The notes under the pieces are model-generated. The model had not been told where the DNA came from. It made no database searches and saw nothing but the letters and a program-made list of their open reading frames with translations. From Syntrophus sp. (in: bacteria) (GTDB taxonomy: Bacteria; Desulfobacterota; Syntrophorhabdia; Syntrophorhabdales; Syntrophorhabdaceae), in NCBI GenBank assembly GCA_013824835.1, contig PNOM01000006.1, positions 1 through 64,000 on the forward strand: a stretch of 64,000 bases of DNA. The letters run 5' to 3'. The position numbers and the translations under genes were made by a program. This document shows positions 1,447 to 2,361 of the stretch, piece after piece. How positions within the stretch are numbered: the stretch's first letter is position 1; each line of letters opens with the position of its first letter.

Positions 1447-1475
1447 TTGACAACTTTACTTATATGTTATACATA
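1447..1475 (+). promoter_or_regulatory. Sigma70-like promoter of the riboswitch/PEP-CTERM transcript
   Basis: A perfect -35 TTGACA at 1447-1452 is followed by an AT-rich -10 region; TATACA at 1468-1473 gives 15 bp spacing and TACATA at 1470-1475 gives 17 bp. Transcription would begin about 40 bases before the riboswitch aptamer. An open frame begins on the TTG of this -35 box, but it merely reads through the promoter and the RNA leader. Confidence 0.6.
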
Positions 1476-1521
1476 TATTTACAATGCACTTATTAGTATT
1501 ACATTAGGAATAGTTCACTCA

Positions 1522-1609
1522 TCCGAAAAGGCCAAACCACCGGTAACGGTGGGACGGAAAGCCAACGGGTCTTTCATAAGACAGCCGAGCCGCCAGGGAG
1601 AACCGAGAG
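1522..1609 (+). promoter_or_regulatory. Cyclic di-GMP-I (GEMM-I) riboswitch
   Basis: The leader carries the GEMM-I signature in order: GGCCAAACCAC (1530-1540), a CCACCG/CGGTGG stem closed by a GTAA tetraloop (GNRA type, 1537-1552), GGGACGGAAAGCC (1551-1563), then ACGGGTC and GACAGCCGAGC forming the second stem (about 1565-1590), and a closing CCGAGAGG. This matches the c-di-GMP-I aptamer that binds the second messenger. It lies directly between the promoter and the PEP-CTERM gene, so c-di-GMP probably sets expression of that exported protein. I see no clear intrinsic terminator after the aptamer, so control may be at the ribosome binding site at 1621-1629. Confidence 0.88.
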
Positions 1610-1635
1610 GTTATTTTACAAAAAGGAGGTTCGGT

Positions 1636-2361
1636 ATGAAGGTAAAGGGTTTAATTCTAATGGTTGTGGTCTTGACCGTTTTTGTATGCACTGGGGTAGC
1701 CAGAGCCGATTTGTTCACCTTTTCAGGAGGTACCACAGGCTTTGGGATATATCAAACAGGATCAGGAGGTGAATTCACCACCACGCCGGATAGCGGACTC
1801 AGCTATATTCTCAACACTTACAATGCAAACGCCAGAATAGGTAACGCCTTTCAGACCTTTTGTCTGGAAACGAACGAAACCGCTTCTGGAGGTGGCACGT
1901 ATGGCGTTTCTCTTAGTAATGCAAGCGTTTACGGCGGTGTCGGCGGTACGGTAAACGGCAAAGATCCGCTGTCTATAGGCACGGCATGGCTTTATAGCCA
2001 GTTTGCAAAAGGTGCTTTGCAGGACTACAATTACACGGACCTGACGCAACGAAAGGTCTCAGCAGAAGCCTTCCAAAATACAATATGGTGGCTTGAGGGT
2101 GAGCTGACAACGAAACCGAACAATACCTTTACAAGCCAGGTTACCGCAAAGTTTGGAGAGGCAAATGCCATGAAGGATAATAATGGCGCATATGCCGTTC
2201 AGGTTGCAAATCTCTGGGAACAGGGCCATGTGGGTGAAGCAGGCTATCAAAAACAGGATGTGTTAGTCGCCAGTCCCGTTCCCATTCCACCCTCGGTATA
2301 TCTTCTTGGTGCAGGCCTTTTAGGGGTAGTATTTGCCCGGAAGAGGGCAAAAAAGGTTTAG
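1636..2361 (+). CDS. PEP-CTERM sorting-domain exported protein
   Basis: Secreted or surface protein of about 241 aa. It has an N-terminal signal peptide (hydrophobic core LILMVVVLTVFVCTG, cleavage near ARA), a Gly/Ser/Thr/Asn-rich body, and a C-terminal PEP-CTERM signal: VPIPPS, a short transmembrane helix (VYLLGAGLLGVVFA) and a basic RKRAKK tail. Such proteins are sorted by exosortase EpsH/XrtA and are linked to exopolysaccharide. The start ATG is fixed by AAAAGGAGG at 1621-1629; an upstream frame extension only translates the riboswitch. The body matches no enzyme I recognise. Control by c-di-GMP fits a biofilm or surface role. Confidence 0.85.
   Translation: MKVKGLILMVVVLTVFVCTGVARADLFTFSGGTTGFGIYQTGSGGEFTTTPDSGLSYILNTYNANARIGNAFQTFCLETNETASGGGTYGVSLSNASVYGGVGGTVNGKDPLSIGTAWLYSQFAKGALQDYNYTDLTQRKVSAEAFQNTIWWLEGELTTKPNNTFTSQVTAKFGEANAMKDNNGAYAVQVANLWEQGHVGEAGYQKQDVLVASPVPIPPSVYLLGAGLLGVVFARKRAKKV

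Follow-up and report, generated by a model that had tools for sequence, protein, structure and literature searches.

The c-di-GMP-I (GEMM-I) riboswitches Vc1 and Vc2 of Vibrio cholerae (RF01051) lie in leaders before genes for surface or secreted proteins, and share a common fold that includes a GNRA tetraloop. The residues that contact c-di-GMP in this fold are G20, A47 and C92 (PMC4744006). Proteins sorted to the surface have been linked to the same second messenger in other bacteria. In the denitrifying methylotroph strain GP59, four of seven c-di-GMP riboswitches are found before PEP-CTERM/VPLPA-CTERM genes, as judged from a report that gives flanking genes and transcript levels only (PMC12530212). 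A parallel that works alike is known from C. difficile, where c-di-GMP controls sorted surface proteins via leader RNAs; the switches there are class II aptamers and their targets Gram-positive sortase substrates, with no homology to the exosortase/VPLPA-CTERM system (PMC6200980). Control of exosortase-sorted proteins has been described for PrsK/PrsR and sigma-54, which act on single-gene PEP-CTERM transcripts with long leaders and whose stimulus was unknown at the time of description (Haft 2006; PMC1569441). Beyond PrsK/PrsR, how such proteins are switched on is poorly known.

Both the riboswitch class and the exosortase sorting system are thus already known. The locus described here, in a 64,000-nucleotide stretch of Syntrophus sp. 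DNA (contig PNOM01000006.1; hereafter the window), appears to join them. We give a probability of roughly 0.65 to the reading that a c-di-GMP-I ON switch acts by release of the Shine-Dalgarno sequence on the gene of an XrtD-sorted surface protein, as part of a lineage-wide set. The target type is that of PrsK/PrsR, whose control is transcriptional. The second messenger and the sorted-protein class are those of strain GP59, a member of a different lineage, and here up to 18 riboswitched genes occur per genome. A riboswitched CTERM regulon on such a scale in this lineage is not described in the open-licence literature searched, which is weak evidence of absence.

The aptamer, its leader and the downstream gene

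An Rfam scan of the window returned one match, RF03167 (c-di-GMP-I-GGC), at 1522-1598 on the forward strand (61.6 bits, gathering cut-off 59; E 4.2e-12 against all Rfam). RF01051 scores the same interval at 56.3 bits, well above its gathering cut-off of 35; the GEMM-I aptamer proposed in an earlier note on this DNA thus withstands the score threshold which that note had set for its refutation. It is the one RF01051 copy in the Syntrophus sp. genome, which is 94% complete. By alignment all three ligand contacts are present, as G1531 (G20), A1558 (A47, which stacks between the ligand bases) and C1593 (C92), with roles taken from Vc2 (PMC4744006). The interhelical C44-G83 pair has its counterpart in C1555 and, as likely partner, G1584, invariant in 23 aligned aptamers of the class. 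Between the first two contacts lies a GNRA tetraloop helix, CCAAACCACCG-GUAA-CGGUGGGACGG (1532-1557), whose closing pair 21:46 (1532:1557) reads C:G, the standard-class pair G21:C46 with both bases swapped (a compensated flip). In the 23-aptamer alignment the flipped type carries GUGA-, GCGA- or GUAA-type loops and a ACGGGUCU...AGACAGCC helix, whereas the standard type mostly has a GAAA loop and a CCUAAG...UAUGG receptor. In contrast to Vc1 and Vc2, the window aptamer therefore has C21:G46 and a GUAA loop without the 11-nt receptor, in a short leader with the Shine-Dalgarno sequence 25 nt from the aptamer. The interval 1522-1598 is almost certainly a real c-di-GMP-I riboswitch and, since G20, A47 and C92 are all present, its ligand is likely to be c-di-GMP.

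The aptamer begins 69 nt past the end of a TTGACA element and ends 37 nt 5' of the ATG at 1636. Two candidate promoters precede it on the forward strand. One (1447-1475), named in the earlier note, consists of TTGACA (1447-1452) and, 17 nt on, TACATA (1470-1475). The other (1478-1505; 9/12 in a consensus scan) consists of TTTACA (1478-1483) and, after 16 nt, TACATT (1500-1505). The first resembles the TTGACA-17-TACAAT/TATAAC layout of relatives in genome G042, but stands about 30 nt farther from the aptamer. The -10 elements of relatives end about 8-15 nt 5' of the aptamer, a distance that the second candidate fits. The second would also place the start of transcription beside P1, as in most relatives, so the TTGACA element is one of two plausible promoters. 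No sigma-54 (-24/-12) site was found within two mismatches at 1376-1635, and the best PrsR candidate of the genome reaches 425 bits (cut-off 502.6); regulation by PrsR and sigma-54 was accordingly rejected. A scan of 1320-2500 found no intrinsic terminator between aptamer and gene, which bears out the earlier note and led us to reject terminator-based control within the window leader.

The gene at 1636-2361 (forward strand) encodes a putative secreted protein of 241 amino acids with an N-terminal signal peptide and a C-terminal VPIPP/hydrophobic/basic tail, VPIPPSVYLLGAGLLGVVFARKRAKKV (2278-2358), read by direct translation. Curated models recognize it poorly: the match to the NCBIfam EDSAP-1 family of PEP-CTERM proteins is partial (E 2e-5) and below cut-off, and TIGR03370 and PF07589 give 13.0 (cut-off 25.35) and 12.0 (cut-off 20.7). 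A model built from 20 class relatives (A2) scores 50.4 bits (E 9.8e-13), a value that is partly circular because the window protein is one of the 20 rows. The tail is best described as a divergent VPLPA-type PEP-CTERM signal outside the curated models. The PEP-CTERM assignment of the earlier note is thus retained for the exosortase-type tail and signal peptide and revised as to type, VPLPA-CTERM proteins being served by XrtD. The genome encodes an XrtD exosortase (TIGR04152, 617 bits; cut-off 400), adjoined by PrsT and exopolysaccharide genes, which by family assignment is the matching, VPLPA-CTERM-specific enzyme for the window protein. It further encodes ten GGDEF domains and, by the class model, six CTERM genes, five of them without a detectable aptamer upstream.

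A near-perfect palindrome of 52 nt (2379-2430; 26-nt arms, 96% inverted repeat) lies just 3' of the gene, where it forms a strong hairpin with a weak T-run only and is a likely transcript end. Given this hairpin after the stop codon, the gene looks monocistronic.

Aptamer subtype and downstream genes in relatives

Searches of 46 genomes of the class with RF03167 and RF01051 gave 73 and 71 matches, respectively, all in ten genomes. Aptamers were typed by the 21:46 pair and counted as linked when a CTERM gene on their own strand ended no more than 1500 nt downstream. A VPLPA/PEP-CTERM gene follows 40 of 51 flipped aptamers (C21:G46) versus 1 of 22 standard ones (G21:C46; Fisher 2e-9, a value inflated by lineage clustering), and a random position precedes such a gene in about 1% of cases or less. 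The sole standard exception is a degenerate copy that by eye appears flipped and looks mistyped. The rule also holds inside single genomes: CTERM genes stand behind 3/3 flipped and 0/2 standard aptamers in G030, and behind 19/24 flipped and 0/1 standard aptamers in G042. Counted per genome, an aptamer precedes 18/67 CTERM genes in G024 (a genome of the same family), 18/35 in G042, 3/17 in G030 and 1/6 in Syntrophus sp. The G024 ortholog of the window protein (54% identical; G024:C40:12903-13646) also lies behind an aptamer. None was found upstream of a second G024 paralog (52%) or of a homolog in G004 (45%).

That the same arrangement recurs before up to 18 such genes per relative suggests that the signal controls a set of surface proteins. 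The stronger statement, that flipped c-di-GMP-I aptamers form a dedicated regulon for exosortase-sorted proteins in the class, covering up to half of a genome's VPLPA-CTERM genes and letting c-di-GMP set much of the surface proteome via RNA, we hold at slightly better than even odds.

Several further features of these loci were recorded. Between the G024 aptamer and the ortholog lies a short, early-ending frame that has a start of its own (L181 2290-2462, minus strand), possibly the remnant of a riboswitched gene. Genome G024 also contains 25 exact copies of a doubled box, TCCTACA-N14-TATCCTACA, with none in a reversed control or in three other genomes. Inspected copies (e.g., L217, L181) lie 5' of CTERM genes with and without aptamers, which makes a second, transcriptional layer likely. 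In G042, where 18 CTERM genes are riboswitched, an exosortase was not found; since this assembly reaches 75% completeness and is split into 520 contigs, the gene is probably missing from it, not absent from the organism. Flipped aptamers also precede a small protein family without a Pfam match, in G032 (same genus; L009 1501-1952) and in G024 (L015); neither an exosortase nor a CTERM gene was found in G032.

Across GTDB genomes the flipped core was found in at least 115 stretches, about 15% of copies preceding PEP-CTERM-like proteins (in Methylomonas, Marinobacter, Desulfobacula and others, among the matches listed). A pattern test placed 18 of 120 database copies before PEP-CTERM genes, at least one of which (L036) is clearly false, and on this count a specificity of the flipped subtype for PEP-CTERM genes across bacteria was rejected. 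The tight link is, on these genome comparisons, a feature of the Syntrophus sp. lineage. Clusters of two to four flipped aptamers were seen, among the matches listed, in Desulfosudis (L075), Desulfobulbaceae (L072), Desulfoluna (L077) and at L045.

Candidate switching mechanism and its alternatives

The proposed switching strand (1584-1594, forward) comprises the 3' side of the second aptamer helix together with C92 and C93, as judged from folds of 1584-1645 and of the full UTR. In the best free fold, GCCGAGCC (1584-1591) pairs with GGUUCGGU (1628-1635) and C92-C93 pair with the GG of the Shine-Dalgarno sequence, so that AGGAGG (1624-1629) and its UUCGGU spacer (together 1624-1635, forward strand) are sequestered in the predicted OFF fold. 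The 1584-1645 fold has a computed energy of -18.3 kcal/mol (z -2.78), better than 197 of 200 shuffles, with 3/200 as good. Computed accessibility of the start codon is about 0.50 in the free UTR 1506-1640 versus 0.97 with the aptamer imposed; the gain is smaller for UTR 1506-1660 (0.33 versus 0.68). Computed energies favour the OFF fold over the aptamer fold by about 12 kcal/mol, and switching would therefore have to be kinetic.

As c-di-GMP rises, it would be bound by the aptamer during transcription, keeping 1584-1594 inside the aptamer. In its absence this strand would pair with AGGAGGUUCGGU and block ribosome entry. Binding would thus free the Shine-Dalgarno and start region and turn translation on. 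Once exported, the protein would be a substrate for XrtD and, in sessile growth, would come to lie on the cell surface or within the layer of exopolysaccharide, and the window gene would be one member of a lineage-wide riboswitched VPLPA/PEP-CTERM set.

Evidence for the pairing step depends on the null chosen. A duplex test gives p<0.005 when the null is the aptamer 3' strand only, versus p values of 0.19 and 0.065 when the aptamer as a whole is taken, and 19 of 54 other Shine-Dalgarno contexts pair equally well; the evidence for this step is moderate. Across 21 relatives, access to the Shine-Dalgarno sequence was no lower with the native aptamer than with swapped or shuffled ones, and sequestration tuned per gene throughout the class was rejected on these tests. 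The direction of control is addressed by relatives in which the equivalent strand, GAGCCGCC, pairs with UUGGCGGC ahead of a U-rich tract (G024:C46, two cases in G024:C27, and G032 with a weaker tail). Because the same strand builds terminators there, ligand would prevent termination, which predicts an ON switch. Terminators 3' of the class aptamers number 19, versus 11.3 expected from shuffles, and only the strong cases were therefore used. The earlier note had left the switch mechanism open, and hairpin and terminators now narrow it to a probable ON switch. Provided that the riboswitch is real, ON control of translation is modestly favoured.

The same riboswitch might instead be an OFF switch, or act through transcript stability or Rho-dependent termination. 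The terminator-free window leader and the negative pairing tests across relatives would fit such a scheme, as would Vc1, which regulates without an obvious terminator or anti-Shine-Dalgarno sequence (PMC4744006), and the class I switches of C. difficile, which are OFF (PMC6200980). A hairpin at 1584-1645 that beats its shuffles, and the relatives' terminators from the aptamer 3' strand that point to ON, argue the other way, and we consider this explanation unlikely, if still a serious contender.

A different ligand, such as cGAMP or another cyclic dinucleotide, might be suspected because RF03167 is the best Rfam model and because the flipped pair adjoins the pocket for the ligand and divides the aptamers sharply according to the type of gene that follows. 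The consensus sequences of RF01051 and RF03167 differ at Vc2 position 47 (ACGCAAA versus ACGCGAA), and the name GGC seems to denote the bases at positions 20, 47 and 92. In the window position 47 is A (ACGGAAA), not the distinguishing G; assignment to the GGC variant was rejected, the higher RF03167 score reflecting overall resemblance. Riboswitches for cGAMP (GEMM-Ib) characteristically have A at position 20. This position, a selectivity factor (PMC9262584), is G in the window, and a cGAMP switch was likewise rejected. The flip, moreover, keeps a Watson-Crick pair and leaves G20, A47 and C92 unchanged, so that another ligand seems very unlikely. Slighter still is the chance that the aptamer is a decayed, non-functional relic upstream of an unrelated gene. 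It is a single copy in a genome with five aptamer-free CTERM genes, as a relic might be; against this, its contact bases and helices are intact at 56-62 bits, and the linkage is conserved at the ortholog and at many paralogous loci.

The core of the earlier note's reading, a GEMM-I c-di-GMP switch upstream of an exosortase-sorted gene with no terminator between them, holds in each computational test, and comparison within the genus and class strengthens it. A conserved riboswitch ahead of many such genes would tie exosortase-sorted proteins to c-di-GMP, the second messenger of biofilm formation, and a role of these proteins in matrix or adhesion would become testable with simple reporters. The many natural paralogous leaders, of terminator and Shine-Dalgarno types, would then be material for studying the use of one aptamer with different expression platforms.
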